A stretch of 26,057 bases of DNA from a virus: positions 1 to 26,057 of IMG/VR virus record IMGVR_UViG_3300048126_000058. One strand, written 5' to 3'. Below the pieces are notes generated by a model. It was not told the origin of the DNA and searched no databases. It was given only the letters and a program-made list of their open reading frames with translations. How positions within the stretch are numbered: the first letter of the stretch is position 1; each line of letters starts with the position of its first letter. Of this stretch, positions 1 to 11,951 are shown piece after piece. Both the position numbers and the translations under genes were made by a program.

Positions 1-72
1 CATCTATACTATTGCGAAGAAGTTTTACATAGTATAGACTGGTCAACTGTCGCTAAATGCTACGAAGTTTAG
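1..72 (+). CDS. 3' end of a small gene entering from the left edge
   Basis: Frame 1 is open from the first base to a TAG at 70-72 and encodes the last 23 residues of a protein ending DWSTVAKCYEV. The start lies outside the window. Nothing identifies a function. The stop codon abuts the first large hairpin (71-120), the same gene-end/hairpin arrangement seen after the genes ending at 1080 and 2510, which supports this being a genuine gene end. Fragment only, so moderate to low confidence. Confidence 0.45.
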   Translation, partial: HLYYCEEVLHSIDWSTVAKCYEV

Positions 73-120
73 TTAATTTATATAGCCTATTACGAAGTAG
101 TAGGCTCTATTAAATTAACT
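71..120. repeat. Long two-part intergenic hairpin 1 (TTACGAA family)
   Basis: Outer arms 71-80 (AGTTAATTTA) and 111-120 (TAAATTAACT) are perfectly complementary. A small internal loop follows, then inner arms 84-93 and 97-106 pair over 10 bp with one G-U wobble around a GAA loop (94-96). The apex contains TTACGAA (90-96), also present in the hairpins at 1088-1133 and 2522-2577. No T-tract follows, so it is not a standard intrinsic terminator. It may be an RNA processing or stabilising element; that is inference. Confidence 0.75.
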
Positions 121-138
121 CCAAAACGAAAAGGCTCA

Positions 139-303
139 ATGCTTATGTATAAAGTTATATTCGATGGTAATGTAATGGTCTGTCAAGACTTAGAAGATGC
201 TACTGAAACTGCTATGCATTTAAGAAATGCAGAATATAGTTTAGTAGAAGTTGTTCCGGCAGAGCCGACTGACTTAGATTCTTTCATTGAAGTGGAGGTA
301 TAA
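139..303 (+). CDS. Small hypothetical protein, 54 aa
   Basis: ATG at 139 follows AAAAGG at 129-134; a second in-frame ATG at 145 has a more usual 10-nt spacing and may be the true start. The product starts MLMYKVIFDG, is strongly acidic (many D/E, ending FIEVEV) and has no recognised domain. It is the first gene after hairpin 1. The next gene's ribosome site (GGAGGT, 294-299) lies in its last codons, indicating a tightly packed operon. No function can be assigned. Confidence 0.65.
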   Translation: MLMYKVIFDGNVMVCQDLEDATETAMHLRNAEYSLVEVVPAEPTDLDSFIEVEV

Positions 304-304
304 G

Positions 305-391
305 ATGATTATAATTGACGTAGCGTTTATAATAGTGTTATCTTTAGCTGGCTTTATAATCTATATAGTTGGAAAGGAGTTAGACTTATGA
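305..391 (+). CDS. Tiny single-pass membrane protein, 28 aa
   Basis: ATG at 305 lies 5 nt after GGAGGT (294-299). The 28-residue product begins MIIIDVAFIIVLSLAG and is almost entirely one hydrophobic helix (about residues 2-23) followed by the polar tail GKELDL. Its stop (389-391) overlaps the ATG of the next gene by 4 nt. Tiny membrane peptides are common in early regions of lytic phages, but no specific role can be read. The strong ribosome site and exact coupling to neighbours are the main evidence that it is real. Confidence 0.6.
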   Translation: MIIIDVAFIIVLSLAGFIIYIVGKELDL

Positions 392-519
392 ATAAATATA
401 CAGTTTGGGTTGGTGGTGTTGAGGCAAATCAATACTATCTCACCAAAGGTGAAGCAGAAAAGTTAGCAGCTATTTACAGAGCTGAAGGTTATCAAGATGT
501 TTACATTGAAAAGGTATAG
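388..519 (+). CDS. Small hypothetical protein, 43 aa
   Basis: ATG at 388 is preceded by AAGGAG at 374-379 with 8-nt spacing and overlaps the previous stop (ATGA). The product starts MNKYTVWVGGVEANQYYLT and reads as a compact beta-alpha-beta mini-protein: a YTVWVGG strand, a GEAEKLAAIYRAEG helix and a final DVYIEKV strand. This layout is frequent in small phage early proteins of unknown function. No catalytic motif is visible. Confidence 0.75.
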   Translation: MNKYTVWVGGVEANQYYLTKGEAEKLAAIYRAEGYQDVYIEKV

Positions 520-523
520 AACT

Positions 524-685
524 ATGAAAAAAGTTGATTTGTTTTACACTCCGACTAGCATGAAAGACTTAGAAGATAGACTCGAAAGTTTCTCAGGCAG
601 TGAAAAATCTATAGCTTGGCTGGCCGCAATGATGGCTTGGAACCTAGCTTGCGATATATCTAACAATGAACAAGAGGATAAGTGA
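524..685 (+). CDS. Small hypothetical protein, 53 aa
   Basis: The frame opens further upstream, but the chosen start is ATG 524 (MKKVDLFYTPTSMKDLEDRL). It sits after AAAAGG at about 510-514 and directly behind the previous stop at 519; an upstream ATG at 497 would lie inside the preceding gene. The middle SEKSIAWLAAMMAWNLAC is a likely amphipathic helix and the C-terminus is acidic. No family recognised. The ribosome site of the next gene lies in its last codons. Confidence 0.65.
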   Translation: MKKVDLFYTPTSMKDLEDRLESFSGSEKSIAWLAAMMAWNLACDISNNEQEDK

Positions 686-686
686 T

Positions 687-947
687 ATGTTAGAACTACA
701 AAAGACTTTACGGTCACGTTTAGATGCCGAACTTGTTAGCACTTGTGGTATACTAGGAATCTGTATTAGCTATAAGAGCAAACATATAGATTCTTTCAAG
801 CCTGATTCTGAATATATGTTCCATAGTTGGGGCAACACTGAAGATGGAGTAGATATATTTTGGGGTCACTATGACCTCACACTATCAGAAGCTTTAGACA
901 TCTGGAAAGATAAAATTAATCAGAACCCAAGGGGCAAGAGGTGGTAA
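687..947 (+). CDS. Small hypothetical protein, 86 aa
   Basis: The start at 687 (MLELQKTLRSRLDAEL) is preferred over an in-frame ATG at 666 because AGAGGA at 673-678 lies 8 nt before it and the overlap with the previous gene disappears. The protein has an N-terminal helix, a central Trp/His-rich segment (FHSWGNTEDGVDIFWGHYD) and a C-terminal helix ending in basic residues (NPRGKRW). No domain recognised. It is followed 1 nt later by the next gene. Confidence 0.7.
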   Translation: MLELQKTLRSRLDAELVSTCGILGICISYKSKHIDSFKPDSEYMFHSWGNTEDGVDIFWGHYDLTLSEALDIWKDKINQNPRGKRW

Positions 948-948
948 A

Positions 949-1080
949 ATGGTAGAACTAAGTAATGAATTTGTGCATTATCTAGTCGAAAGACTATTAG
1001 ATGGCGGTTATGTAACTAGCGGTGAAGTCTTTAATGCCGTAGAAGATTGGAATGAGCGCTATATACCTGAAGAAGATTAA
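949..1080 (+). CDS. Small acidic hypothetical protein, 43 aa
   Basis: ATG 949 follows AAGAGGTGG at 936-944. The product begins MVELSNEFVHYLVERLLDGG, contains YVTSGEVFNAVEDWNERY and ends in EED. It resembles a short helical protein but matches no family I recognise. It is the last gene before hairpin 2 (1088-1133) and therefore closes the first cluster of small genes. Confidence 0.7.
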   Translation: MVELSNEFVHYLVERLLDGGYVTSGEVFNAVEDWNERYIPEED

Positions 1081-1087
1081 TATTAAA

Positions 1088-1133
1088 TGTACTTATTAGT
1101 TAGTAAGTTCTTACGAACTAACTAATAAGTACA
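1088..1133. repeat. Perfect intergenic hairpin 2 (TTACGAA family)
   Basis: A perfect 16-bp stem pairs 1088-1103 (TGTACTTATTAGTTAG) with 1118-1133 (CTAACTAATAAGTACA). The loop is TAAGTTCTTACGAA (1104-1117). The upper 6 bp and the whole loop are identical to the hairpin at 2522-2577, while the lower stem differs yet stays self-complementary. It sits in the only gap between the genes ending at 1080 and starting at 1149. No U-tract follows. Confidence 0.85.
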
Positions 1134-1148
1134 CAATTGGAGATGCCG

Positions 1149-1766
1149 ATGTTCAACACTCACTGCAAAGCGGTTCAAGAATACTCACAGCGTAGTGCTA
1201 CTAATATGTCAGATACAGTTCTAATGGTAGTGCTAAGCATCCAACAAAACTGGCTCGGTGTTGGCGACCAGCTAACTGATGTAAGGCTAAATAAATCTGA
1301 GTCCCGATTCTTGTGGGGCAACAAAGGAAAAACATATAGCTATCTTAAATCTAATCAGCACAAAGTATATGCTCAAGTGATGGCTGTTATCAACAGCAAA
1401 CAAACAGACTTTATGAAGTCTATATCGCTAATGAATATATTCTTGAGGGTTGATGGCTTGGGCTTAGCTAAAGCTGGCTTCTGCTGCCAGTTGATTGCTG
1501 GATTGGTTGGCTGTATGGATACTCATAACATTAGAATGTATGGGCTGGACACCAAAGACTTAGCACTAGCTAAGAATCCAAAGACCCAGAAGGGCATTGA
1601 TGCTAACAACGCTAAGATAGATAAGTACATAGAGTTGTGTGCTGACTATGGCTGTGAGAATCTTTGGAATGCTTGGTGCGACTTTGTAGCTACTAAATCT
1701 AAGCGCTGGCAAGACGGCAACCATGTGTCTGAAGTACATTATACTTACCTGACCGGAGGTCACTGA
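1149..1766 (+). CDS. Hypothetical protein with an HhH-GPD (DNA glycosylase)-like segment, 205 aa
   Basis: ATG 1149 is preferred because GGAG (1139-1142) lies 6 nt upstream; ATG 1143 and TTG 1137 are in-frame alternatives. Seen in the sequence: VDGLGLAKAG (residues 101-110) is followed after 13 residues by MDTHNIRMYG, with Asp124. In helix-hairpin-helix-GPD glycosylases such as endonuclease III an LPGVG hairpin is followed by VDTH carrying the catalytic Asp, 22 residues after the first hairpin Gly; here the distance is 21. No lyase Lys sits in the equivalent place and no C-terminal iron-sulfur Cys cluster is seen. A glycosylase-like or merely DNA-binding role is inference. The gene heads the second small-gene cluster directly after hairpin 2. 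Confidence 0.6.
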   Translation: MFNTHCKAVQEYSQRSATNMSDTVLMVVLSIQQNWLGVGDQLTDVRLNKSESRFLWGNKGKTYSYLKSNQHKVYAQVMAVINSKQTDFMKSISLMNIFLRVDGLGLAKAGFCCQLIAGLVGCMDTHNIRMYGLDTKDLALAKNPKTQKGIDANNAKIDKYIELCADYGCENLWNAWCDFVATKSKRWQDGNHVSEVHYTYLTGGH

Positions 1767-1993
1767 TGAATTTACCCACAGAAGAAGAGTTTATTGCGAC
1801 CTGTCAGTCACATATGTTTAGCTTTATGATTGAGCCAGACCTCAATAAAGCTATGGAAGGTCTTCAAACCTACCACTATATGCAAGATGTTATCAAAAAA
1901 GGAGGCTCGAAGTACAAGAAGATACACCGCAAAGCCTTTGAAGATTACATAGATAAAGTTAAACAGGAGGCTAGAAATGGTACCAGCAACTGA
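1766..1993 (+). CDS. Hypothetical helical protein, 75 aa
   Basis: The ATG overlaps the previous stop (TGATG) and has GGAGG at 1755-1759. The sequence (MNLPTEEEFIATCQSHMFSF and onward) is predicted mostly helical with a lysine-rich second half (KKGGSKYKKIHRKAFEDYI). No recognised family. Its end overlaps the next gene by 17 nt, consistent with a translationally coupled cluster. Confidence 0.7.
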   Translation: MNLPTEEEFIATCQSHMFSFMIEPDLNKAMEGLQTYHYMQDVIKKGGSKYKKIHRKAFEDYIDKVKQEARNGTSN

Positions 1994-2165
1994 AGAATTA
2001 GAAAAAACTCAAGAGCTTTTATCGGATGTTATGCATCAAATTTATCGGGATGTAAGAGACGGTGAGGGCCAAGCAATATACGAAATGATTGAAAGACTTC
2101 CTAACTATATACTTGAAGGTTATTTAAACGAGGCAGAGCACCATGAAAAACTCAGATGGAATTAA
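1977..2165 (+). CDS. Hypothetical acidic helical protein, 62 aa
   Basis: ATG 1977 follows AGGAGG, placed inside the end of the preceding gene. The product (MVPATEELEKTQELLSDVMH and onward) is helical and acidic, with no motif I recognise. The gene overlaps both neighbours (17 nt upstream, 23 nt downstream), a compact organisation typical of small lytic phages. Function unknown. Confidence 0.7.
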   Translation: MVPATEELEKTQELLSDVMHQIYRDVRDGEGQAIYEMIERLPNYILEGYLNEAEHHEKLRWN

Positions 2166-2337
2166 AGAAGGCAATGTTCTATGGCGTATAGATTTTACAG
2201 ATGAGTTTGATTCGCCTATGTATTGTTTTAGTTTAGAAGATGCACATAAAATAGCTAGGACGAGAGGCAATAAACCCTACATAATTACCATGTTAAATGG
2301 TGATAGACTTCAAAGCGAACTTACAGGTAAAAGATAA
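2143..2337 (+). CDS. Hypothetical protein, 64 aa
   Basis: ATG 2143 follows GAGG at about 2130. The product MKNSDGIKEGNVLWRIDF continues with an acidic centre (FTDEFDSPMYCFSLEDAHKI) and a basic tail. Short alternating strands and one helix are likely. It resembles other small phage proteins with a sandwich of strands around EDAHKIA but has no assigned family. Its stop shares one base with the next start (TAATG). Confidence 0.7.
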   Translation: MKNSDGIKEGNVLWRIDFTDEFDSPMYCFSLEDAHKIARTRGNKPYIITMLNGDRLQSELTGKR

Positions 2338-2510
2338 TGGCTTACAAACTAACTCAAAACAAATTAGATTTCTTTAACATTCTTAAAGACTTAACAATAA
2401 CTACAGAGCAGTTGAAATATGACACAGCTTTTGAGCCAACAGAAGAAGAGCTTGAGATGTTGGATGACCTAGCTACTAGAGTATTTAATATATGCATCAA
2501 TGATAATTAA
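2337..2510 (+). CDS. Small hypothetical protein, 57 aa
   Basis: This ORF, too short for a standard length cut-off, starts at the ATG of a TAATG junction with the previous stop and runs to TAA at 2508-2510. The product is MAYKLTQNKLDFFNILKDL followed by a glutamate-rich helix (FEPTEEELEMLDDLATRVF). It is the last gene before hairpin 3. Start-stop coupling and coding-like composition are the evidence; no function is evident. Confidence 0.65.
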   Translation: MAYKLTQNKLDFFNILKDLTITTEQLKYDTAFEPTEEELEMLDDLATRVFNICINDN

Positions 2511-2521
2511 TATACTCAATT

Positions 2522-2577
2522 ACTTAATGACTTATAAGTTAGTAAGTTCTTACGAACTAACTTATAAGACATTAAGT
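2522..2577. repeat. Long intergenic hairpin 3 (TTACGAA family)
   Basis: Stem 2522-2529 (ACTTAATG) pairs with 2570-2577 (CATTAAGT). After one A-A mismatch, 2531-2542 (CTTATAAGTTAG) pairs with 2557-2568 (CTAACTTATAAG). The 14-nt loop TAAGTTCTTACGAA (2543-2556) is identical to that of hairpin 2. Together the stem is 20 bp with one mismatch. It separates the second small-gene cluster from the promoter at 2620-2648. Confidence 0.85.
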
Positions 2578-2605
2578 TATTGTACCACACTTCGATGGCG
2601 GTGTC

Positions 2606-2626
2606 AAGTAAAAAACCGCTTTACTT
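2606..2626. promoter_or_regulatory. Inverted repeat overlapping the -35 box (possible operator)
   Basis: AAGTAAA (2606-2612) and TTTACTT (2620-2626) form a perfect 7-bp inverted repeat separated by 7 nt. The right arm contains the -35 hexamer of the promoter at 2620-2648. This arrangement would suit a repressor or activator site. It could also be a weak A/T hairpin ending the upstream transcript. Seen in sequence; the role is inferred. Confidence 0.4.
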
Positions 2627-2648
2627 TTAAATAAATATATGTTATAAT
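2620..2648 (+). promoter_or_regulatory. Sigma70-like promoter upstream of the DUF932 operon
   Basis: The -35 box TTTACT (2620-2625, 4 of 6 consensus) and a perfect -10 box TATAAT (2643-2648) are separated by 17 bp. The flanking region is very A/T-rich. Transcription would begin near 2655, about 30 nt before the ATG at 2686. It lies in the first long gap after hairpin 3. This implies use of the host RNA polymerase for this block. Confidence 0.75.
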
Positions 2649-2685
2649 ATACATTCAAATATACACTCAAATAGGCATTAAAATT

Positions 2686-2943
2686 ATGGAAACTTTATTC
2701 AACTTAATCGCAAAATCTACACACTCTTTGGCATTTAGCGGCAAGAAAAACGGTACAGTATTCGGTAAGTCTTTTATTGTACGACAGCGAAGCACCAAGA
2801 ATCGTTTCGAGGTTAGCAAAGGAGAGTGTTTTCATATCTTCCACTGTTATAAGTGGGCTTTCTATGTACAGCACAAACAGTCTCGAAGCATTAGCTTCAA
2901 GAACATCAAAGATATTAATGGCATCGAAGGAGTACAAGCATAA
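2686..2943 (+). CDS. Hypothetical basic protein, 85 aa
   Basis: First gene behind the 2620-2648 promoter; its ATG follows an AGG-containing weak ribosome site (ATAGGC, about 2671-2676). The product (METLFNLIAKSTHSLAFSGK) is basic and rich in aromatic and Ser/Lys residues, for example FHIFHCYKWAFYVQHKQ. It has no recognised fold. A - strand ORF covers the same span, but the + strand version fits the promoter and the coupling to the next gene (TAATG at 2941). Function unknown. Confidence 0.65.
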   Translation: METLFNLIAKSTHSLAFSGKKNGTVFGKSFIVRQRSTKNRFEVSKGECFHIFHCYKWAFYVQHKQSRSISFKNIKDINGIEGVQA

Positions 2944-3881
2944 TGACTATCATGCAAATGTTCCCAAACAACTCAGCACTTCAAGCCATCCGAGAGGGTG
3001 GCTACGGCTCAGCAGATTTTGATATAGCTACACAGCCCTTAACATATCTTCCTGCTGAAGAGTGGCTACCAGAAATAACAAGCTCTAAGTCTGTAATCTA
3101 CCGCACTGATTCTGGTGCAGAGCTAGGTGTACATGGTCATAGCTATAAGCCAGTGGCTCCCAAGAAGATGATAGATGTTACCCGTAATATTATCGAGCGT
3201 TCAGGTCTTAATGTTGACGGCATCAGAGAGACTATCAGAACTTCTCACAATGGCTCCAGAACCTTTGTACAATATAAGCTACCTGCTCATACTTATAATA
3301 CTCCAGACGGCGACACTGCATCCCTTGGACTGCTTGCAGTGTCAAGCTTTGATGGGACTTGGCCCTTCATGATTAGTGCAGCAGCTATCCAGCAAGCGTG
3401 TACAAATCTACAAGTCTTTGTTGGCGGTGAGGTTGCAGTGTTCAGAGCTAAGCATACCCGAAACCTAGACATTGAAGTAGGCTCAAGAGTTATCACCAAG
3501 GCTCTAGATGTTTTCGAGAACCAACGTGAACTCTGGTCAGAGTGGAGTGCTCAGCCCATGTCAGACAGCATGGCATTCCAAGAGATTGTAGAAGCTTTGA
3601 AGATTGCTTCAGCTCAAAAGATTATAAACTCTAGACCACCATCTTCCCCTGAGGCTATCATGGGTGAGATGCCTAGAACTAATCCAGCACTTGAATACAT
3701 CTATGCTGCTTGGCATAAGTACAAGAGACGTTTAGGTGCTAATCGCTGGGCATTTTATAATGCTATGACCGACTGGTCTACTCATGCAACAGCACAACGA
3801 CGAGATGCTATAGTTAATATGGCTGCAACACAGAACACTCGACAGGCTGTTGTCCAACATCACTTCTCAAAGGTGGCGTAA
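2943..3881 (+). CDS. DUF932-family protein, 312 aa
   Basis: ATG 2943 has AAGGAG-like AAGGAG at 2927-2932 and overlaps the previous stop. The overall length, the central beta-rich region (SHNGSRTFVQYKLPAH, then SSFDGTWPFMISAAAIQQAC) and the C-terminal GANRWAFYNAMTDWSTHA agree with the phage/plasmid DUF932 family, whose members typically show a W-x-x-Y-N-A-x-T-x-x-x-x-H signature near the end. The family is widespread in phages and plasmids and its biochemical role is not established. Here it is the second gene of the operon driven by the 2620-2648 promoter and precedes the MazG genes, so it is expressed before or with the nucleotide and replication functions. Family call by eye; fairly confident. 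Confidence 0.8.
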   Translation: MTIMQMFPNNSALQAIREGGYGSADFDIATQPLTYLPAEEWLPEITSSKSVIYRTDSGAELGVHGHSYKPVAPKKMIDVTRNIIERSGLNVDGIRETIRTSHNGSRTFVQYKLPAHTYNTPDGDTASLGLLAVSSFDGTWPFMISAAAIQQACTNLQVFVGGEVAVFRAKHTRNLDIEVGSRVITKALDVFENQRELWSEWSAQPMSDSMAFQEIVEALKIASAQKIINSRPPSSPEAIMGEMPRTNPALEYIYAAWHKYKRRLGANRWAFYNAMTDWSTHATAQRRDAIVNMAATQNTRQAVVQHHFSKVA

Positions 3882-4144
3882 TGTTAAACAACGAACTAAC
3901 CCCGCAAGAACAAGAGCTTCTTGTTATAACTATGGAGGAGTGCTGCGAACTAGCGATGGTTTGCAGCAAGCTTCTGAGGTTTGGCAAAGAACAAAAACAT
4001 TTAGATAACTTACTACAGGAGTCAGCCGATGTTACTGTGATGATTAACCTGCTCTCAGATTATAAACTGGTGAGCCAAATAGAAAAGCTAGGACAGATGT
4101 TTAAGAAACAAGACAAGCTTAAAGAATGGAGCAGCCTGTATTGA
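3881..4144 (+). CDS. MazG-like NTP pyrophosphohydrolase (first copy), 87 aa
   Basis: The start overlaps the previous stop (TAATG) with AAAGGTGG just upstream. Residues 19-23 (EECCE) and 47-50 (ESAD) form the EExxE...ExxD metal-binding pattern of all-alpha NTP pyrophosphatases of the MazG type. The protein is one short four-helix half, the usual length for phage MazG-like proteins. The family hydrolyses (d)NTPs to (d)NMP and pyrophosphate; the phage substrate here is unknown. It lies 127 nt upstream of a second MazG-like gene, an unusual pairing. It could act on damaged dNTPs or shift nucleotide pools for replication, which is inference. Confidence 0.75.
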   Translation: MLNNELTPQEQELLVITMEECCELAMVCSKLLRFGKEQKHLDNLLQESADVTVMINLLSDYKLVSQIEKLGQMFKKQDKLKEWSSLY

Positions 4145-4311
4145 ATCAGAACTTAAAGAATGCTATGGAAGACTTAATGCAGGGACGATTAACACTGCTA
4201 CAAGCCATCAGTAAATGGGACGTAACATCTCAAGAACTGCTTAATTATATACAAGAGGAAGCCGAAAAGAATGAAGACACTGGAAGACAAGATAGTACAA
4301 TGGCACCATGA
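4126..4311 (+). CDS. Hypothetical helical protein, 61 aa
   Basis: ATG 4126 gives MEQPVLNQNLKNAMEDLMQG and overlaps the previous gene by 19 nt. An alternative TTG at 4141, 8 nt after GGAGC (4128-4132), would remove most of the overlap. The product is short and helical, ending in acidic and polar residues (EEAEKNEDTGRQDS). The segment LTLLQAISKWDVTSQELLNYI hints at a small helix-turn-helix-like helical pair but is too weak to name. It sits between the two MazG genes and overlaps the second by 41 nt. Confidence 0.6.
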   Translation: MEQPVLNQNLKNAMEDLMQGRLTLLQAISKWDVTSQELLNYIQEEAEKNEDTGRQDSTMAP

Positions 4312-4579
4312 CCGCAATTTGTTTGATGGCTCAACAGACCATCAACAATTTGAAAAACTTCTCGAAGAGGTTGAAGAGCTGCGAATTAACATTCAGAATG
4401 ACCAGTTAGTTATTGATGACATCGGAGATATTATTGTAGTTTTAATCAACATTGCCCACCGAAGCAAACTAACACTAGAGCAGTGCATGGAACACGCTTA
4501 CAATGATATTAAAGATAGGAAAGGTAAGATGGTTGACGGCCTGTTTGTTAAAGAGGCTGCTAACGGCAGCGCCTTATAG
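4271..4579 (+). CDS. MazG-like NTP pyrophosphohydrolase (second copy), 102 aa
   Basis: The sequence shows KLLEEVEEL (Glu32, Glu33, Glu36), then DDIGDIIVVLINIA (Asp50, Asp53) and AYNDIKDRKGKMVDG, the typical core and C-terminal lysine-rich element of phage MazG-like proteins. Its N-terminus (MKTLEDKIVQWHHDRNL) also matches the usual family start. The canonical second-helix Glu is replaced by Asp50 (D-x-x-D in place of E-x-x-D), a conservative change. It overlaps the upstream gene by 41 nt and its stop shares a base with a GTG start downstream. It is unlike the first copy in sequence, so the two are not a recent duplication and may have different substrates or form a hetero-oligomer (inference). 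Confidence 0.85.
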   Translation: MKTLEDKIVQWHHDRNLFDGSTDHQQFEKLLEEVEELRINIQNDQLVIDDIGDIIVVLINIAHRSKLTLEQCMEHAYNDIKDRKGKMVDGLFVKEAANGSAL

Positions 4580-4692
4580 TGACAACACTAGCAATAGTAA
4601 TAGGTCTAGCCCTCTGCGCTGCACCACCACCAGTTGTTTTTGTTTTAGCTTTGGCTGGTATGTGGGCAGAGGGTGAGTTTTTTTTCAAATAA
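4579..4692 (+). CDS. Tiny hydrophobic membrane protein, 37 aa (GTG start)
   Basis: A GTG at 4579 overlaps the last base of the MazG stop codon and opens a frame to TAA at 4690-4692. The product reads MTTLAIVIGLALCAAPPPVV and continues hydrophobic (FVLALAGMW) with a short acidic tail (AEGEFFFK), so it would be a one- or two-segment membrane peptide. No good ribosome site is visible (GAGG lies over 20 nt upstream), so translation would depend on coupling. Its end carries the T-rich run and touches the A/T-rich region in front of the promoter at 4696-4724. Plausible but not certain. Confidence 0.5.
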   Translation: MTTLAIVIGLALCAAPPPVVFVLALAGMWAEGEFFFK

Positions 4693-4695
4693 AAC

Positions 4696-4724
4696 TTTAC
4701 AAACGTAGTAACTTGTGGTACAAT
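4696..4724 (+). promoter_or_regulatory. Strong sigma70-like promoter before the replication block
   Basis: TTTACA (4696-4701, 5 of 6 for -35) and TACAAT (4719-4724, 5 of 6 for -10) have an optimal 17-bp spacer, and TGG immediately before the -10 makes an extended -10 element. A T/A-rich tract (about 4676-4695) could act as an UP element. The start point would be near 4731, giving a leader of about 33 nt to the SSB gene. This is the best promoter match in the window. Confidence 0.8.
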
Positions 4725-4763
4725 GCCACTTCAATTTTAACACCAACGATAGGAAATATAAAC

Positions 4764-5189
4764 ATGGCTATATTATCAGGAACAGCATACTGGGCAAGCG
4801 TAACTACCCCGAACACTACTTACGAACCAGTATACACAGTAAACTTAGTAGTAGATGAAGACACTGCACAAAGCTTTCGGTCTAAAGGTTTTGCAGTCAA
4901 GGACATGGACGAAGGCCCAGCGCTGGTAATCAAGCGTAAAGTTAATGGCCCAAATGGAATGATACGTCAAGCTCCTAAGCTTGTTGATGCCAGCAAGAAC
5001 CCCATTGATGAGCGTGTAGGTAATGGCTCTACAGTTAAGGTTCAGTACAAAGAGTGGGAATCTGTATGGAAAGGTAAGACCTTCAAGGGCTTAGACTTCC
5101 AAGCTATGCAGGTTCTAGATTTGGTATCTGTCGGAACAGCAGACGGCGGAGAATTTGAAGTAGAAGATGAAATGGAGGAAGCAATTTAA
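4764..5189 (+). CDS. Single-stranded DNA-binding protein, 141 aa
   Basis: The start at ATG 4764 (MAILSGTAYWASVTTPN) has AGGA at 4751-4754; the longer frame from 4713 would lie across the promoter and is rejected. The sequence gives an OB-fold-like series of beta strands (YEPVYTVNLVVDEDTA, PALVIKRKVNGPNG, STVKVQYKEWES) and ends in a very acidic tail (EFEVEDEMEEAI). A disordered acidic C-terminus is the hallmark of phage SSBs of the T7 gp2.5 type, where it contacts the polymerase and primase-helicase. It is the first gene after the strong promoter and immediately precedes the primase-helicase region, consistent with a replisome role coating ssDNA. Confidence 0.8.
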   Translation: MAILSGTAYWASVTTPNTTYEPVYTVNLVVDEDTAQSFRSKGFAVKDMDEGPALVIKRKVNGPNGMIRQAPKLVDASKNPIDERVGNGSTVKVQYKEWESVWKGKTFKGLDFQAMQVLDLVSVGTADGGEFEVEDEMEEAI

Positions 5190-5422
5190 TGGGTACATAT
5201 AAAGTAGGCGACACCGTATACGATGTATCTTTGCTAGACTCAGAAGCCCAAGGATTGTTTGGGCTTTTGAAAGACGCAATGGTTAAGGTACAAGTATCCA
5301 ACAACGATGTACAGTTATATCAAGCAGCAGCTCAGCAGATTAAAGCTTTGTTTGAAGATAGGCTCACGGATGAAGCCATCACCGAAGATGCAGAGGAAGC
5401 TGAAATTGTAGTTGAAGACTAA
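5189..5422 (+). CDS. Hypothetical protein, 77 aa
   Basis: ATG 5189 shares a base with the SSB stop and follows GGAGGA at 5173-5178. The sequence begins MGTYKVGDTVYDVSLLDSEA, has a helical centre (VQLYQAAAQQIKALFEDRL) and ends in a long acidic tail (EDAEEAEIVVED). The length and the N-terminal beta strand resemble a group of small phage proteins often found near replication genes, without a known function. The acidic tail recalls that of the SSB just upstream and could compete for the same partners, a speculation only. Confidence 0.7.
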   Translation: MGTYKVGDTVYDVSLLDSEAQGLFGLLKDAMVKVQVSNNDVQLYQAAAQQIKALFEDRLTDEAITEDAEEAEIVVED

Positions 5423-5437
5423 CCTAAAGGTGACAAC

Positions 5438-7099
5438 ATGCCGTTTGTTAAATTCCATCTGCCGTGCCATGACTGTGGCGGCAGTGACCCAGTAAGTCAG
5501 AACGATGACGGGTCAGCGTATTGCTTCAGTTGCAATACTTATTTTAAAGACTACGGCACATCGGAAGTGCAACCACAAGATACTGTAACGGACTTTACAA
5601 AGTATCAAGCCAGCGGAACCGGAAGTGGTTCTAGCTACAACGCCTTGACCGACAGGGGTATTAGTATTGAGACAGCCAAAAAGTATGGCGTTAAATCTAC
5701 TACCCTTAACGGCAAGGTTACTAGCCACCACTACCCCTACTTCCACAAGGGCGAAGAGGTAGCAACAAAAATTAGAAAGCTCAACAAGCAGTTTGCTTGG
5801 ACGGGTAACTCTAAAGAAACAGGGCTGTTCGGAGAGCAGTTGTTTAAAGCAGGCGGTAAGTTTATTACAGTGGTAGAAGGAGAGTGTGATGCGATGGCAG
5901 CATACGAACTACTTGGAAGTAAGTGGCCTGTAGTATCTATAAAATCAGGAGCACAAGGAGGTGCTCGTGACGTTAAGAATAGTCTAGAGTTTCTAGAATC
6001 TTTTGATACAGTAGTGTTATGTTTCGATAGCGACAATGTGGGCAAGGACGGAGCTAAAGCAATTGCCAAGCTTCTCACCCCCAACAAGGCTAAGTTAATG
6101 ACACTGCCCGAAGGGTTCAAAGACCCTAACGATATGCTCAAGGAACACAAGCATTCTATGTTTGTTAATTGTTTCTGGGATGCAAAAGTCTACACCCCTT
6201 CAGGGATTATGAACCTGTCCAGCCAGCTAGACGAGTACAAGCGTTTACGTACAGAAAAGCTTCCGTCAATCCCATATCCTTGGGGCGGCTTAAACAAGAA
6301 GCTAGAAGGCATGAGAGCAGGTGAGCTAGTAACTCTTACTGGCGGCACTGGTCTTGGTAAGTCTTCTGTTACTAGAGAACTAGAGCACTGGCTTATCAAC
6401 CACACCAAAGATAACGTAGGCATTGTAGCTCTTGAAGAGAACTGGAGCCGCACTGCTGAGGGTATCATGGCTGTTGAGGCTAACTCCAAGCTACACCTAG
6501 ACAGCGTTAAGAATAAGATAGGTGATGACAGGCTTGAACAATACTACCGCAAGGTATTTATGGGAGAGAACGAGGGGCGTGTTTGGATTCATGCTCACCT
6601 CGGAGTAAACAATCTAGAAGATATATTCAGCAAGCTACGCTACCTGATTGTTGGATTAGATTGTAAGTGGGTTGTAGTTGACCACCTTCATATGCTGGTG
6701 CTTCAAGCCTTGGAGGGCGATGAGCGCAAAGCTATTGACGGTATCATGCACCGACTACGTTCCCTTGTAGAAGAGACAGGTGCCGGTATGATACTAGTGT
6801 CCCACCTTCGTAGAGTTGAAGGCAACCGTGGACATGAGAACGGTATCGAGACAGGGCTGTCACACCTTCGAGGCTCTCAGAGTATCGCTCAGTTGTCAGA
6901 CTGTGTTATATCTCTAGAGCGCAATCAGCAGTCAGAGGATGAGATTGAGGCATCAACCACTAAGGTGCGAGTGCTTAAATCTAGATACACTGGAGATGTT
7001 GGCGTAGCTTGTAGTCTTCTATACGATGCCGACACTGGCAGGCTACGAGAGATTAATGATGGTGATAACTATGATGCCTTTGACGGAGACGAGCTATGA
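5438..7099 (+). CDS. Bifunctional DNA primase-helicase (T7 gp4 type), 553 aa
   Basis: One polypeptide unwinds DNA and lays primers at the fork. Residues 10-32 form a four-cysteine zinc finger (Cys10, Cys13, Cys29, Cys32). The TOPRIM primase core follows, with Glu147 (VVEGECD) and Asp197/Asp199 (CFDSDN). The helicase part has Walker A GGTGLGKS at 302-309, a Walker B region WVVVDHLHML, LVSHLRR, and the terminal KSRYTGDVG segment that supplies the arginine finger in T7 gp4. The length is close to T7 gp4 (566 aa), so no domain is missing. AAAGGTG at about 5425-5431 supports the start. It overlaps the DNA polymerase gene by 4 nt (ATGA), the coupling seen in many marine podoviruses. Confidence 0.95.
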   Translation: MPFVKFHLPCHDCGGSDPVSQNDDGSAYCFSCNTYFKDYGTSEVQPQDTVTDFTKYQASGTGSGSSYNALTDRGISIETAKKYGVKSTTLNGKVTSHHYPYFHKGEEVATKIRKLNKQFAWTGNSKETGLFGEQLFKAGGKFITVVEGECDAMAAYELLGSKWPVVSIKSGAQGGARDVKNSLEFLESFDTVVLCFDSDNVGKDGAKAIAKLLTPNKAKLMTLPEGFKDPNDMLKEHKHSMFVNCFWDAKVYTPSGIMNLSSQLDEYKRLRTEKLPSIPYPWGGLNKKLEGMRAGELVTLTGGTGLGKSSVTRELEHWLINHTKDNVGIVALEENWSRTAEGIMAVEANSKLHLDSVKNKIGDDRLEQYYRKVFMGENEGRVWIHAHLGVNNLEDIFSKLRYLIVGLDCKWVVVDHLHMLVLQALEGDERKAIDGIMHRLRSLVEETGAGMILVSHLRRVEGNRGHENGIETGLSHLRGSQSIAQLSDCVISLERNQQSEDEIEASTTKVRVLKSRYTGDVGVACSLLYDADTGRLREINDGDNYDAFDGDEL

Positions 7100-8853
7100 G
7101 TAACTTAGTGTTTGACATTGAGGCAGACGGACTTGACCCTACTAAAATCTTTTGTATTGTTGCTCAAGATGTAGACACAATGGATGTGTTTACATTTGAC
7201 AACACCCAACTCGAAGAGGGCTACGGTCTACTTCGGGCCGCAGACAAACTAATCGGCCATAACATCATAGGCTATGACCTTCCGGCTATCAAAGATATTA
7301 CCGGACTTGACCTAAGCAACAAGAAGATTGTCGATACACTGGTACTTTCTAGATTATTTAAGCCAACCCGTGAGGGTGGTCATGGTCTAGAGTCTTGGGG
7401 TTATCGCCTCAAGTTTAGCAAGGGTGACTACGGCAGCAACCAAGATGCTTGGGATGCTTACTGCCCTGAGATGTTAGAGTATTGTAAGCGTGATGTAGAA
7501 CTGAACACTAAAGTATATCAGCAGTTGCGTGTCGAGAGCCGAGGCTTCACACCTACCGCAGTAAAGCTTGAGCATTCAGTTGCTAAGATTATAGATGAGC
7601 AACGCCGCAATGGTTTTGAGTTGGATATGCGTAAGGCTATGCTGCTTGTTGCAATGTTCCAAGAGAAGCTTGACGCTACAGAATCTGAAGTGCATGAAAC
7701 ATTTAAGCCTAAGATTATCGTAGATATTCTCAAGCCTAAGTATACTAAAAGCGGTAAGCTTGCTAAGGTTTCCGAAGGCCCAGAGGGTAAGGGTGTTAGA
7801 CTTACTGATGACGAGTATGACATCATGCTTCAAACCAACAAGCCTCTCAAGCGTGAGACACACATAGACTTTAATCTAGGTTCCCGTAAGCAGATAGGTG
7901 AGTATCTTATTGATGCTGGTTGGACACCTAAGAACTTTACACCTACCGGACAGCCCATTGTTGATGAGGGCACACTGTCTAAGGTTAAAGATATACCCGA
8001 AGCTGCTTTGATTGCTAAATATCTAATGCTTCAGAAGCGCTTAGCTCAGGTAAACAGTTGGATAAAAGCGGTTGAGCCTGACAACAGGGTGCGTGGTTAT
8101 GTTAATCCTAACGGTGCCGTGACAGGCCGCATGACACACAGTCATCCTAACATGGCACAGATACCTAGCAGCAACTCACCCTACGGAAAAGAGTGTAGGT
8201 CTTGTTGGACTGTAAAGTCTGGTAACAAGCTGGTAGGTATTGATGCTTCAGGCTTAGAGCTTAGAATGCTTGCACACTATATGAACGATAAGGAGTATAC
8301 AAATGAAATCCTCAACGGTGATATTCACAGCGCTAACCAACGACTTGCAGGACTTGAATCAAGAAATCAGGCGAAGACTTTCATCTATGCCTTCCTCTAC
8401 GGAGCAGGAAATGCAAAGCTTGGGTCAGTGGCTAAAGCAGGTCAAGCAAGAGGTAAACAACTGCGAGAACAGTTTCTTAATAGTGTCCCATCACTTAAAT
8501 CTCTTGTCCAACGAGTACAACGAGACAGTAAAAAAGGATTCCTCAAGGGGCTAGATGGACGTAAGCTTTCTATACGCTCTGAACATGCAGCACTCAACAC
8601 GCTGTTACAATCAGCAGGTGCTATAGTTATGAAGGAAGCACTGGTTGTACTAGAGAAAAAGATACGGCACTTAGATGCTAAGTTTGTAGCCAACGTCCAC
8701 GATGAGTGGCAGATTGAATGTAGTGAACAAGACGCAGAAGCAGTAGGTCAAGCAGGCATCGATGCTATTGTTGAAGCAGGTAAGAACTTAAACTTAAACT
8801 GCCCCTTAGATGGGGATTACAACATCGGAGATGGATGGCATGAAACCCACTAA
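7096..8853 (+). CDS. Family A DNA polymerase with 3'-5' exonuclease, 585 aa
   Basis: This is the replicative polymerase. The exonuclease has motif I FDIEADGL (Asp6, Glu8), motif II LIGHNIIGYDLPAI and motif III YCKRDVELNTKVY. The polymerase has motif A GIDASGLELRMLAHYM (Asp383), motif B/O-helix RNQAKTFIYAFLYGAG (Arg423, Lys427, Tyr431, Tyr435) and motif C VHDEWQIE (Asp536). Tyr431 corresponds to E. coli Pol I position 762 and T7 Tyr526, the tyrosine state linked to strictly lytic phages and efficient ddNTP acceptance. At 585 aa it is shorter than T7 gp5 (704 aa), probably reduced in the thumb/processivity region, so a thioredoxin-like processivity loop may be missing. No DnaJ-like zinc insertion is present. 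It overlaps the primase-helicase by 4 nt and the next gene by 14 nt. Confidence 0.96.
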   Translation: MSNLVFDIEADGLDPTKIFCIVAQDVDTMDVFTFDNTQLEEGYGLLRAADKLIGHNIIGYDLPAIKDITGLDLSNKKIVDTLVLSRLFKPTREGGHGLESWGYRLKFSKGDYGSNQDAWDAYCPEMLEYCKRDVELNTKVYQQLRVESRGFTPTAVKLEHSVAKIIDEQRRNGFELDMRKAMLLVAMFQEKLDATESEVHETFKPKIIVDILKPKYTKSGKLAKVSEGPEGKGVRLTDDEYDIMLQTNKPLKRETHIDFNLGSRKQIGEYLIDAGWTPKNFTPTGQPIVDEGTLSKVKDIPEAALIAKYLMLQKRLAQVNSWIKAVEPDNRVRGYVNPNGAVTGRMTHSHPNMAQIPSSNSPYGKECRSCWTVKSGNKLVGIDASGLELRMLAHYMNDKEYTNEILNGDIHSANQRLAGLESRNQAKTFIYAFLYGAGNAKLGSVAKAGQARGKQLREQFLNSVPSLKSLVQRVQRDSKKGFLKGLDGRKLSIRSEHAALNTLLQSAGAIVMKEALVVLEKKIRHLDAKFVANVHDEWQIECSEQDAEAVGQAGIDAIVEAGKNLNLNCPLDGDYNIGDGWHETH

Positions 8854-9265
8854 AGCAGACAGAAAAAAGTTCGACCTTGACCTAGCATACGGAGAAGTGC
8901 GTGAAGATAAGATTGCAGCGATGCTTACAGGCAAGAAGATAGAAGTTAAATCAGAGCGTGACTTGTGGCAGAAGACGGGCAACATATGCATTGAGTATAA
9001 GTCATACGGTAAGCCGTCAGGTATTGACGCAACTGAATCCGATTACTGGTTTCATAACTTATGTATCGGTGATGATGAATATTGTACACTTGTGTTTAAC
9101 ACTGCTACACTCAAGAAGATTGTCAAGCGCCTAGATAGTTTTAAAACTGTGTCGGGTGGTGACAACAGGGCAAGCCAGATGTACCTGTTAAACCTTCAGA
9201 AGCTATTCTCTTCTGATGTAATCAAAGCATTCAAGGAGTTAGAAGATGAACCAGAAGCCGCTTAA
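8840..9265 (+). CDS. Putative PD-(D/E)XK nuclease, 141 aa
   Basis: ATG 8840 (MKPTKADRKKFDLDLAYGEV) is preferred over the longer frame from 8810 because CGGAG at 8826-8830 lies 9 nt upstream. Residues 19-41 read as GEVREDKIAAML followed by KKIEVKSERD: Glu19 in the first helix and the E-x-K pair Glu35/Lys37, the pattern of small restriction-like nucleases. IEYKSYGKPSGIDATESDYW follows and recalls nucleases that act on structured or host DNA. Location between the polymerase and a second nuclease suggests a part in recombination or host DNA breakdown. No exact family is recognised. Overlaps the polymerase end by 14 nt and the next gene by 20 nt. Confidence 0.6.
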   Translation: MKPTKADRKKFDLDLAYGEVREDKIAAMLTGKKIEVKSERDLWQKTGNICIEYKSYGKPSGIDATESDYWFHNLCIGDDEYCTLVFNTATLKKIVKRLDSFKTVSGGDNRASQMYLLNLQKLFSSDVIKAFKELEDEPEAA

Positions 9266-10109
9266 TACTATAGTCCCTGACATCTATGGGCTGCTTGAAA
9301 ACCTTTCAAACGGAGAGCCTCTTCCAATAACGGAGGAGGCGCTCGATGCAACGATGGCATCTATGAAAGAAGCTATCCTTCATTGGGCAACACCAAGACC
9401 CAGAGACACTGACTTCACCGTCCGAATGTCTAATGTAGGTAAGCCCTCTCGTCAGATGTGGTTTGAGAAGCGTGACCCTAATGGCCGTGGCAGTGTTGAC
9501 GGAGCAACTCAAATTAAGTTTCTGTATGGTCATATCCTTGAAGAGATTGTACTTATGCTTGTACGAATGGCACAACACAGCGTCACCGATGAGCAGAAAG
9601 AAGTTACAGTCAACGGTATTGTAGGACACATGGACTGTAAGATTAACGGTCAGGTAGTAGACGTTAAGTCTGCATCCAAGTTTGCTTTCAATAAGTTTGT
9701 CAAAGGAACACTGGCCGATGATGACCCCTTCGGTTACTTAGGACAACTTGCCGGTTACGAGAAAGCAGAGGGCACAGACAAGGGTGGGTTTCTTGTTATA
9801 AACAAAGAGAGTGGTGAGCTTTGTATGTATGTGCCGGATGATTTAGATAAGCCGAACATAGATACTAAAATAAATACGCTGCTAGACGAATTAAAACTTG
9901 ACACGCCACCAGAACTATGCTATACTCCCACACCTGATGGCAAGAAAGGAAACATGCAATTGCCTAAAGGTTGTACGTGGTGTAAGTATAAGTATGAATG
10001 CCACAAGGATGCCAACGATGGAGCTGGCCTCAGAACTTTCAAATACTCTACAGGATATAAATATCTAACTCACGTAGAGGCAGAACCAAAGGTGGATGAG
10101 ATACTATGA
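9246..10109 (+). CDS. PD-(D/E)XK exonuclease, RecB/Cas4-like, 287 aa
   Basis: Nuclease motifs in order: YGHILEE (Glu99/Glu100), GHMDCKINGQVVDVKSASK with Asp130, Asp139 and Lys141 (the D-x-K pair), then QLAGY (Gln167, Tyr171), the Q-x3-Y element of the RecB nuclease family. The C-terminal TWCKYKYECHK supplies C-x2-C-x6-C with one preceding Cys (GC of PKGC), resembling the cysteine-rich end of Cas4/AddB-type nucleases that hold an iron-sulfur cluster. The N-terminal partner cysteine is not obvious (RQMWFEKR lies where it is expected). In phages with this gene order the protein is usually annotated as the exonuclease that recycles host DNA or resects ends for recombination. It is coupled by ATGA to the next gene. 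Confidence 0.75.
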   Translation: MNQKPLNTIVPDIYGLLENLSNGEPLPITEEALDATMASMKEAILHWATPRPRDTDFTVRMSNVGKPSRQMWFEKRDPNGRGSVDGATQIKFLYGHILEEIVLMLVRMAQHSVTDEQKEVTVNGIVGHMDCKINGQVVDVKSASKFAFNKFVKGTLADDDPFGYLGQLAGYEKAEGTDKGGFLVINKESGELCMYVPDDLDKPNIDTKINTLLDELKLDTPPELCYTPTPDGKKGNMQLPKGCTWCKYKYECHKDANDGAGLRTFKYSTGYKYLTHVEAEPKVDEIL

Positions 10110-10393
10110 ATCGCAAGAAGTCTAAGCGTATAAGGAAGCATGCAGAAACTTTGCAGATTGAATGGCTTAAAAGTCTCCTCAATGACGAGGAGGCTTCTAA
10201 GATTACTAAAGATAACTTCAAAGACATGCTGCCCAAACAAACACACTTGTGGGCACAAGGCACAATACACACTAGCTTTTACACACTGAAGTGGCTGAGC
10301 AATAAAATAAAACAACTAATAAAAATCTTTCCCGACAAGGATGTTGAGGACGTAACTCCCCAAGACATTGCATGGAAGATGGAGCAGCGATGA
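10106..10393 (+). CDS. Hypothetical basic protein, 95 aa
   Basis: The start overlaps the exonuclease stop (ATGA). The product begins MNRKKSKRIRKHAETLQIEW, is strongly basic at the N-terminus, and has two helical stretches including WLKSLLNDEEASKIT and FYTLKWLSNKIKQLIKIF. The position between the exonuclease and the resolvase suggests a DNA-related accessory role, but no family is recognised. Its stop overlaps the resolvase start by 4 nt. Confidence 0.7.
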   Translation: MNRKKSKRIRKHAETLQIEWLKSLLNDEEASKITKDNFKDMLPKQTHLWAQGTIHTSFYTLKWLSNKIKQLIKIFPDKDVEDVTPQDIAWKMEQR

Positions 10394-10866
10394 AAAAAAT
10401 ACGCAAGGGATATAGGAAACCGAGGGTGAAGCGCCCAGTTGAAAAGGACTTAGTTAAAGGCTATGACTCAAACTGGGAATATGAGCTGCACTCTGGCATC
10501 CTAGATGCTTGGGAGTTTCATGCCGACAAAGTTGAGTACACTGTTACACACAAGTACGAGCCAGACTTTGTTAAAGAAATAGACGGCAAGAAAATACTGC
10601 TTGAAGCAAAGGGCCGGTTCTGGGACAGCGCAGAATACTCTAAGTATATCTGGATAGCAAAAGTTCTACCGACTGACGTTGAACTGGTGTTTTTGTTTGC
10701 TAACCCTAACGCTCCAATGCCTGCTTCCAAGGTACGCAAAGATGGAACAAGACGGTCACATGGTGAGTGGGCCTCTGCAAATAACTTTAAATGGTTTAGT
10801 GAAGATAGTATACCTGATAACTGGATTAACACGAAGAAGAAAGAGGACTTTAAAGATGAGCATTAA
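10390..10866 (+). CDS. Endonuclease I (T7 gp3-like Holliday junction resolvase), 158 aa
   Basis: Start ATG 10390 (ATGA with the previous stop) has GGAG at 10381-10384; an earlier in-frame ATG at 10372 lacks a site and is rejected. After a basic N-terminus (MKKIRKGYRKPRVKRP) come SNWEYELHSGIL (Glu30/Glu32), YEPDFV (Asp59) and ILLEAKGRFW (Glu72, Lys74), matching T7 endonuclease I residues Glu20, Asp55, Glu65 and Lys67. The end, SHGEWASANNFKWFS then IPDNWI, also corresponds to the T7 enzyme. T7 endonuclease I is 149 aa, so this is full length. It resolves branched replication and recombination intermediates and helps degrade host DNA. Confidence 0.9.
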   Translation: MKKIRKGYRKPRVKRPVEKDLVKGYDSNWEYELHSGILDAWEFHADKVEYTVTHKYEPDFVKEIDGKKILLEAKGRFWDSAEYSKYIWIAKVLPTDVELVFLFANPNAPMPASKVRKDGTRRSHGEWASANNFKWFSEDSIPDNWINTKKKEDFKDEH

Positions 10867-11362
10867 TGACGCTACTCCCCAAGACTGGGACAGGGTGAGG
10901 CAAACCGGACAACCCACATTCGAGGAATATATGAAACGACTAAAGTCTAATTATGTTTATGACAGCACCGAAAACTACGGCAATGAAGTTACTAACGATG
11001 CAGGAGATTTTGCAGATTGTTGGGATACAGGTACAGAGCATAGAGGACTAGACGCTTGGATGCGAGCAGCTCACCGAGAAAATTCAGAGCTTTGGGAAGA
11101 CGAGTCTCTGGAGGACATAATTGCTCGACAAGATGAAGAAGATATGGTAAGCGCTCCAAAGCACTACAACTCAGGAAATATAGAGTGTATTGAAGCTATT
11201 GAAGAGTCCATGTCCAGTCATGCATTCAAAGGCTACCTCAAGGGCAACTGCATGAAGTACCTGTGGCGCTATGACTACAAAGGCAAACAGGTAGAAGACC
11301 TACAGAAAGCTGGCTGGTACTTGAACAAGCTAACAAAAATGGTTGCCGAGGAGAACAGCTGA
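10856..11362 (+). CDS. DUF3310 protein (T7 gp1.7-like nucleotide kinase family), 168 aa
   Basis: Start ATG 10856 (MSINDATPQDWDRVRQTGQP) has AGAGGA at 10842-10847; the longer frame upstream lies inside the resolvase gene. The C-terminal half carries the DUF3310 signature: APKHYNSGNIECIEAIE, then FKGYLKGNCMKYLWRYDYKG and DLQKAGWYLNKL. DUF3310 includes T7 gp1.7, a dGMP/dTMP kinase, so a nucleotide kinase role is possible. The N-terminal 90 residues are acidic and unrelated to anything recognised. Overlaps the resolvase by 11 nt and the next gene by 1 nt (TGATG). Confidence 0.85.
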   Translation: MSINDATPQDWDRVRQTGQPTFEEYMKRLKSNYVYDSTENYGNEVTNDAGDFADCWDTGTEHRGLDAWMRAAHRENSELWEDESLEDIIARQDEEDMVSAPKHYNSGNIECIEAIEESMSSHAFKGYLKGNCMKYLWRYDYKGKQVEDLQKAGWYLNKLTKMVAEENS

Positions 11363-11472
11363 TGGATAGACAACCAGTGTTTGAGTTTATACACTATCCA
11401 GAGTTCGGAGAAGCAGAGAGAGCAGTTCAATTACTTTTTAAAAGCATGCTCCTACCACATACCACTAGATGA
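11362..11472 (+). CDS. Tiny hypothetical protein, 36 aa
   Basis: ATG 11362 lies 8 nt after GAGGAG (11348-11353), an excellent ribosome site, and shares a base with the previous stop. The product is MDRQPVFEFIHYPEFGEAER followed by AVQLLFKSMLLPHTTR. It ends in an ATGA junction with the next gene. No known domain. The strong ribosome site and coupling on both sides are the support. Confidence 0.65.
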   Translation: MDRQPVFEFIHYPEFGEAERAVQLLFKSMLLPHTTR

Positions 11473-11642
11473 GGAAGAATAAAAGAATACCACTGAAGGG
11501 TGGCGCAGAGTGGGATGCTCTTACTAACGCTAAAAAACTTTATTGTTATTTAAAAAAGTCTGGAGTTGCTAAGAGCATTAAGCGGGGTTACAACAAACGA
11601 TTTAGGCAAGAGGGTAAACGTGAAACAAAAGACATTAACTAA
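11469..11642 (+). CDS. Small basic phage protein, 57 aa
   Basis: The frame starts at the ATG of an ATGA junction and runs to TAA at 11640-11642; a stop directly upstream fixes this as the first start. The protein opens MRKNKRIPLKGGAEWDALTN and continues with basic helices (KKLYCYLKKSGVAKSIKRG, YNKRFRQ). The KGGxEWDA...IKR.YNKR pattern is familiar to me from small unnamed proteins of T7-like and other phages. Likely binds nucleic acid because of its charge, but this is inference. It overlaps the next gene by 23 nt. Confidence 0.65.
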   Translation: MRKNKRIPLKGGAEWDALTNAKKLYCYLKKSGVAKSIKRGYNKRFRQEGKRETKDIN

Positions 11643-11802
11643 GTGGTGGCGGATATGGGCAAAAAGTCTAGGTGAAAAGGTTGGCGAGACAGATAAGCAA
11701 GCTAATACTGTTGCTGGTATTAGGACTGTTTGGTGGCTTACTCATATGGTTACATGCATCTTTATTATTGCAGGCAACGTAAAGGCACTGGGTCTTTTAT
11801 AA
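11620..11802 (+). CDS. Small membrane protein, 60 aa (GTG start)
   Basis: GTG 11620 follows AGAGGG (11609-11614) with 5-nt spacing; the upstream part of the frame lies in the previous gene and is not used. The product has a Trp-rich basic start (MKQKTLTKWWRIWAKSLGEK), a polar segment (VGETDKQANTVAGIRT) and one C-terminal transmembrane helix (about residues 39-58, VWWLTHMVTCIFIIAGNV). Probably an inner-membrane-anchored protein of unknown role, located in a cluster of tiny genes before the ribonucleotide reductase. Confidence 0.65.
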   Translation: MKQKTLTKWWRIWAKSLGEKVGETDKQANTVAGIRTVWWLTHMVTCIFIIAGNVKALGLL

Positions 11803-11951
11803 TGGATAGAAAAGAAGAAAGGCGGGATAGGTTTGACCGCAAGAAGAAGTTTAAAAAATTAACAAGGTCTTCTAAAGCTAAGACCGAACGCAAAAAAAAT
11901 AAAAGGAAAGACAATGACAGTACAATTTATGGACATGCTGTGGAGCATTAA
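11802..11951 (+). CDS. Tiny highly charged basic protein, 49 aa
   Basis: ATG 11802 forms a TAATG junction with the previous stop. The 49 residues are extraordinarily rich in Lys/Arg (MDRKEERRDRFDRKKKFKKL, then SSKAKTERKKNKRKDNDS). No hydrophobic core is visible, so it is likely disordered and nucleic-acid binding or RNA binding, by inference only. The last 38 nt overlap the start of the next gene. Confidence 0.55.
   Translation: MDRKEERRDRFDRKKKFKKLTRSSKAKTERKKNKRKDNDSTIYGHAVEH

Follow-up and report, generated by a model that had tools for sequence, protein, structure and literature searches.

A constant hairpin tip on free stems before early genes of uncultured phages: a putative family of signals in early messages

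The IMG/VR virus record IMGVR_UViG_3300048126_000058 (one entire record of 26,057 bases, referred to here as the window) contains two members of a family of hairpins in which a nearly constant tip is carried by stems of free sequence. The family recurs in many contigs of uncultured phages and looks like an undescribed family of signals shaping early phage messages. That these hairpins are RNA-level cis elements on the early strand is well supported. The best explanation we can offer from the sequences, and a tentative one, is that they may serve as boundary signals for the processing or protection of early mRNA. The functions listed in an earlier note on the window (processing, protection, protein binding) are inseparable by sequence alone.

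Position and strand of the hairpins

Among 79 nonredundant hairpins, 65 are followed within 90 nt downstream by a Shine-Dalgarno (SD) sequence and a start codon. The mirror image of this arrangement occurs in 15 of 79, and random positions give 28.8%. In 72 of the 79 hairpins the better fold is that of the coding strand, and in three both strands fold equally well. By a crude count, 19 of 133 contexts reach more than 15 nt into an open reading frame (ORF), whereas 86% would do so if they were placed at random. In all of 20 records examined, the hairpins of a record are found on a single strand. On the 12 contigs with a PolA gene, some of them close kin, all 41 hairpins lie on the PolA strand; on the nine contigs with a terminase gene, again with close kin among them, all 25 hairpins lie opposite to the terminase strand. 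One of 17 records (G017) has no hairpin by the general tip rule given below. Because of position, strand and the conservation of the tip, a signal in the mRNA seems to us more likely than a selfish element.

The hairpins of the window

Hairpin 2 (1088..1133, plus strand) is formed by the arms 1088-1104 and 1117-1133, which pair over 17 unbroken bp, and exposes the 12-nt tip AAGTTCTTACGA at 1105-1116. Hairpin 3 (2517..2582, plus strand) carries the same 12 nt at 2544-2555 between the arms 2517-2543 and 2556-2582; its stem runs for 13 bp and then meets a first break, an A/A mismatch. Both are family members with a type I tip, and a repeat search gives an arm complementarity of 100% for hairpin 2 and of 93% for hairpin 3. 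The SD sequence GGAG (1139-1142) is separated from the base of hairpin 2 by 5 nt and belongs with the likely start codon ATG at 1149 of a 209-aa ORF (SD and start codon together 1139..1151, plus strand).

The earlier note had described these two and a further hairpin as a family of three with a common TTACGAA apex. All three hairpins are present in the gaps around the small-gene clusters, and on the plus strand their folds reach z values of -6.0, -8.0 and -7.7 (hairpins 1 to 3) relative to shuffled sequences; for each of the three, 0 of 200 shuffles matched the native fold. The common apex is real for hairpins 2 and 3. In hairpin 1 the same letters fall within CUAUUAC-GAA-GUAGUAG, with GAA as a triloop. 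The stems of hairpins 2 and 3, described as entirely different below the upper 6 bp, are not so: of the 14 left-arm bases nearest the tip 13 agree, with a compensated T-A/A-T swap at pair 8, and divergence begins only past pair 13. As to further copies in this genome, TTCTTACGAA occurs exactly at hairpins 2 and 3 only, and the four matches with one mismatch in the record are no more than chance.

Stable intergenic hairpins bring intrinsic terminators or attenuators to mind. We regard this explanation as very improbable. An intrinsic terminator has a G+C-rich stem with a U-tract behind it. Here the U-tract was rightly noted as lacking, a scan of positions 1-15000 of the window gave 16 terminator-like sites without any of the three hairpins among them, the stems of the family are AU-rich, and the hairpins are placed against the next SD sequence.

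Distribution of the tip

In IMG/VR contigs the tip RAGTTCTTACGA is found on many different stems. A 24-mer consisting of tip and upper stem is present exactly in 42 IMG/VR stretches, and the 16-mer GTRAGTTCTTACGAAC in at least 119; on account of these outside matches the motif of hairpins 2 and 3 is above chance. The 16-mer has 139 distinct contexts, 102 of which extend the stem by at least five unbroken pairs. In 14 the stem is not extended at all, and these may be chance matches. A second tip, TAGAGTATCTTACGATA, occurs in 67 stretches, and in newly fetched loci 54 of its 59 distinct contexts have all seven of seven stem pairs. For a third tip, CTGACTTCTTAGGAAG, there are 16 stretches, and a stem is found in only 4 of 13 distinct new contexts. 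Each of 20 records contains between one and six exact tips. Thus the further copies and the covariation that the earlier note had predicted were found, and the hairpin family persists through strong sequence change, likewise with no U-tract. We note that in one 106,894-base IMG/VR record (G004) two tips lie 47 kb apart and the PolA and portal genes are both present twice, so that this record is possibly a chimera or a double assembly.

The collection of bacterial and archaeal genomes, scanned with one 18-base form of the tip, gave seven matches, each with only one or two further unbroken pairs beyond GT/AC. Since the matches reach no further than this, we count no stemmed copy of this form there. 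A model built from type I tips (R1) gave only two matches, with E values of 3.5 and 4, in 11 cultured relatives, which were covered whole (HTVC104P, HTVC115P, HMO-2011, CRP-9) or by their early parts (CRP-227, CRP-118, CRP-207, CRP-235, CRP-603, CRP-403, HTVC033P); parts of CRP-4, SIO1 and CRP-345 gave no match. The general tip rule had no match in 358,617 bases of cultured relatives against 55 in the 943,770 bases of the window and the carrier records. When hairpin stretches were compared by blastn with 50,697 phage records, hairpin 3 gave only matches with E values of 0.7-8 and a second search gave no match; in further searches of this kind no tip was covered among the matches listed. Rfam 15 has no family match in the window, and even with E values up to 5 allowed the hairpins remain without a match. 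In six further loci its matches stay below the gathering thresholds; four sub-threshold matches are microRNA models lying over hairpins on the opposite strand, with 23-33 bits against thresholds of 62-96. Finally, no paper brought up by the literature searches, which did not include most subscription journals, describes a hairpin element with this tip, and GAGUUCUUACGA is absent from the literature searched.

Pairing of the stems

Across 33 distinct stems, both partners vary in 10 of the 11 pairs, and 92.6% of the pairing cells are paired compared with 54.2% after shuffling and 31-48% when the partner is slid. These rows had been selected for seven paired bases beside the tip, and a fairer test is therefore given by the four outer pairs, at which 67-97% of the rows are paired. 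Read on the coding strand, the stems contain 14 G.U and five A.C oppositions. Counted from the tip, pairing most often continues without a break for 11 bp (20 of 79 hairpins), next most often for 8 bp (12 of 79), and is then interrupted by a mismatch or a bulge.

A general form of the tip

The tips can be brought into the general form S-X-RA-Y-UC-N3-5-GA-X'-S'. The tip is a unit of 12-13 nt which carries RA, UC and GA and has no NGNN tetraloop. Often X equals Y, and X' could then pair with either. A loose version of the rule caught 155 distinct hairpins. Of these, 88 match a scan pattern, and by the way they were picked X' necessarily fits X as well as Y. In the other 67, X' fits both in 36, only X in 14, only Y in seven and neither in 10. 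The 36 comprise six kinds of segment (GU, GUA, AGU, GGU, CU and AC), a second search adds GUU and AGUA, and in the hairpins where only X fits Y is mostly paired with the loop side. A search with a covariance model returned tip forms for which the scans had never asked, and these keep the rule as well. Most type I and type II tips have in their best fold an extra small inner helix past RA opposite GA, and RA and GA may form tandem sheared G.A pairs. Nearest-neighbour energies of 13 model hairpins place the state in which X' pairs with Y 0.8-3.5 kcal/mol above plain pairing with X.

The two pairing partners of X' suggest another explanation, which in our view is possible but doubtful, namely an RNA regulon. 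A phage or host protein on the tip would switch translation or elongation of the early clusters without any cleavage, as a repressor, activator or antiterminator, and the switch would consist in X' pairing with X or with Y. The constant tip on a free stem, the several copies per genome and the closeness to the SD sequence are all consistent with such a regulon, and so are the 36 hairpins outside the scan patterns in which both pairings fit. Against it stand the hairpins among the 67 in which only one pairing or neither fits, and no common phage gene offers itself as a candidate binder. Direct masking would not be the way in which it works because in 65 of 79 hairpins the stem does not include the SD sequence. 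A different role for the tip, as an antisense site for a fixed RNA, was dropped because the loop N3-5 and the X and Y segments are variable.

Search for a reader

No RNase III gene was detected in 21 records, with a control search positive in 8 of 14 genomes, and a phage RNase III was accordingly dropped as the reader of the tip. The comparison of gene families, which covered 11 cultured relatives, seven of them by 12-16 kb only, found no family common to all tip-bearing lineages. Nor did it find a gene which all carriers have and the cultured relatives lack; the widest family that the latter lack reaches five of nine lineages. With no shared gene family and no RNase III gene found, a host factor is a better guess than a phage protein. 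Different kinds of tip occur within one genome, and hence the reader should see the common form of the tip and not one sequence.

Promoters near the hairpins

A leftward promoter of the sigma70 type (TTGACA-17-TACAAT, 2579..2607, minus strand) overlaps the base of hairpin 3 with its -10 box; it would run antisense to the early small genes. Further down, ahead of the ORF 2686-2943, lies a rightward promoter-like site (TTTACT-17-TATAAT with TG before the -10 box, 2620..2648, plus strand). At hairpin 3 and its counterparts a leftward promoter with the -10 box in the base of the stem and zero to two mismatches is present in 18 of 40 distinct contexts, in 17 of these 18 at the identical offset, and 10 of the 18 also have the rightward site further down. 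The family as a whole shows no enrichment of leftward sites (3 of 78, with 2 of 78 at random). Rightward promoter-like sites upstream of the hairpin, with up to two mismatches, are slightly enriched (6 of 78, with 1 of 78 at random), and TTGACA precedes the tip by 22-65 nt in 15 of 77, roughly ten times as often as in the background. The upstream ORFs of the loci L111, L232, L233, L235, L240, L046 and L054 often end in GCTTGACA about 40 nt before the tip, so that a -35-like box is seemingly built into the ends of these genes.

From these sites one could construct a promoter cassette, in which the upstream -35 box would be combined with the AT-rich lower stem as the -10 box. The RNA would start inside the arm and open with a short hairpin, and the hairpin would mainly be the 5' end of its own transcript. 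The enrichment of TTGACA, the slight one of rightward sites and the leftward promoters at hairpin 3 and its counterparts point in this direction. We nevertheless consider the cassette quite unlikely, since 62 of 77 hairpins have no TTGACA within this distance, the promoter scan gave no strong promoter at hairpin 2, and the constant tip and the lower right arm are left unaccounted for. A leftward antisense RNA which starts at the hairpin 3 promoter and pairs with all tips was also rejected, the promoter belonging to the lineage of the window.

Proposed mechanism and points against it

We suggest the following course of events. We take hairpins 2 and 3 to be cis-acting RNA hairpins between early-gene clusters, placed on the coding strand shortly before the ribosome-binding site. 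The host RNA polymerase would make a long early transcript in which each hairpin is a modular boundary. A factor, more likely of host than of phage origin, would recognise the tip and tolerate any stem. This factor would then process or shield the RNA at the hairpin and so determine, for each gene cluster downstream, where its message begins at the 5' side and how stable it is.

Several points weigh against boundary signals of this kind. By a crude count, 28 of 133 hairpins are located where most ORFs of at least 50 aa run on the opposite strand. The commonest left arms measure 19-20 nt (31 of 79 hairpins in a count uncorrected for kinship), and arms of this length correspond to the geometry of a T7-type RNase III site (a duplex of about 20 bp with an irregularity), but 20 of 79 left arms have less than 15 nt. 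We know of no bacterial RNase III which reads the loop. The state in which X' pairs with Y lies 0.8-6.2 kcal/mol above the best fold in the 13 model hairpins and may therefore be rarely populated. No cultured carrier was found among the phages tested. Moreover, two-sided stem changes are seen between loci whose flanks are 98-99% identical (L250/L283 and L023/L038), and template switching may help to keep the stems perfect.

This last point bears on the argument of the earlier note that retained pairing means a selected structure. Pairing is indeed retained, but alone it is no proof. In 85 comparisons, which are not independent of each other, 113 changes are two-sided and 46 one-sided; template switching could equally yield two-sided changes, and covariation is thereby weakened as proof of selection. 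The hairpins might accordingly be DNA-level palindromes, that is small mobile or self-perpetuating inverted repeats whose stems are kept by template switching and whose effect on RNA is secondary. This would agree with the presence and absence of a hairpin at one gene junction: from the stop codon to the ATG that follows it, L037, L044 and L027 have 77 nt with hairpin and SD sequence, which the window, L015 and L005 lack at the matching junction. It would also agree with a stem of the hairpin 3 type at the place of hairpin 2 in L016, and with a partial extra left arm and tip directly upstream of a complete hairpin in L068 (6503-6570), which could be a leftover of slippage or template switching. 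The mobile element proposed in the earlier note has one piece of evidence in its favour, the presence and absence of the 77 nt. However, no target duplication was seen at the 77-nt junction, the hairpins keep to one strand per record and to a fixed place before the SD sequence, the coding strand folds better, and the one 18-base form searched for has no stemmed bacterial copy. Palindromes acting as DNA are therefore an unlikely explanation in our opinion, and we retain boundary signals in the early mRNA as the preferred one.

Hairpin 1 and the genes of the window

Hairpin 1 (71..120, plus strand) was counted as a family member in the earlier note. With its GAA triloop it does not fit the family rule, and we list it as a separate hairpin conserved in sequence: its 50 nt are nearly invariant across 12 distinct 85-nt contexts including that of the window. 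Its core occurs in 16 IMG/VR stretches with varying flanks, all of them on contigs which also bear the tip family.

According to PHROG matches the window stems from a tailed phage. The plus strand encodes a primase/helicase, PolA, a Cas4-type exonuclease, an endonuclease and a ribonucleotide reductase, and the minus strand an endolysin-like protein and large virion-type proteins. The nearest match of its PolA in a cultured phage is that of Pelagibacter phage HTVC115P with 50.5% identity. A DUF932 protein (PF06067; 2943-3881) is common to four tip-bearing lineages and HMO-2011.

Comparison with known systems

The hairpins are a compact and recognisable RNA element which recurs in many uncultured phage contigs, and this in the least-understood region, the early one. 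If a host factor reads the tip, the element would provide a handle on the order of early expression, a marker for relatives and a test case of a tip-defined RNA signal. One may go further and imagine a tip code: a tip S-X-RA-X-UC-N-GA-X'-S' could change from one paired state to the other by slipping, whatever the stem of about two helical turns beneath it. It would be read by one host factor, and several phage lineages would have adopted it to punctuate their early messages. We put this forward as a speculation which is rather doubtful as a whole. If true, it would amount to tip-recognised processing or switching of mRNA in bacteria, free of any demand on the stem, and the nearest known logic is that of eukaryotic RNase III.

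The RNase III sites of the T7 early mRNA are hairpins between cistrons, about two helical turns long and irregular at an internal point, and several of them are distributed along an early transcript near the start of the next gene. In these respects the present hairpins are alike. What differs is that the constant part is here the tip; a constant tip on free stems is to our knowledge not a feature of the T7 sites. The virion RNA polymerase of phage N4, a phage RNA polymerase, uses a hairpin promoter with a stem of 5-7 bp and a loop of 3 nt. Most of the present stems are far longer, and the phage-type RNA polymerase family PF00940 was found in 0 of 21 records, with the controls giving 0 as well.

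Among T4-type phages, the promoter early stem-loops (PeSLs) are described, as cited in PMC4503421, as combining an early promoter with, judging from the title of the cited work, a terminator. Like the present hairpins they are stem-loops in gaps between early genes and come with gain and loss of modules. PeSLs, however, join promoter and terminator, whereas here a U-tract is lacking and a promoter stands beside only part of the copies. The translational operator of gene 43 in T4 and RB69 is a hairpin with a conserved loop upstream of the start codon (PMC3014915). The conserved loop before a start codon is the same in both cases, but the operator is one autoregulatory site for one protein and the tip hairpins stand in many copies before different genes. 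Finally, yeast Rnt1p is an RNase III which reads NGNN/AGNN tetraloops (PMC4334505). The logic is alike in that a tip is read on a stem of free sequence. The tip described here is no NGNN tetraloop, Rnt1p is a yeast enzyme, and cleavage of the phage hairpins would be a prediction.

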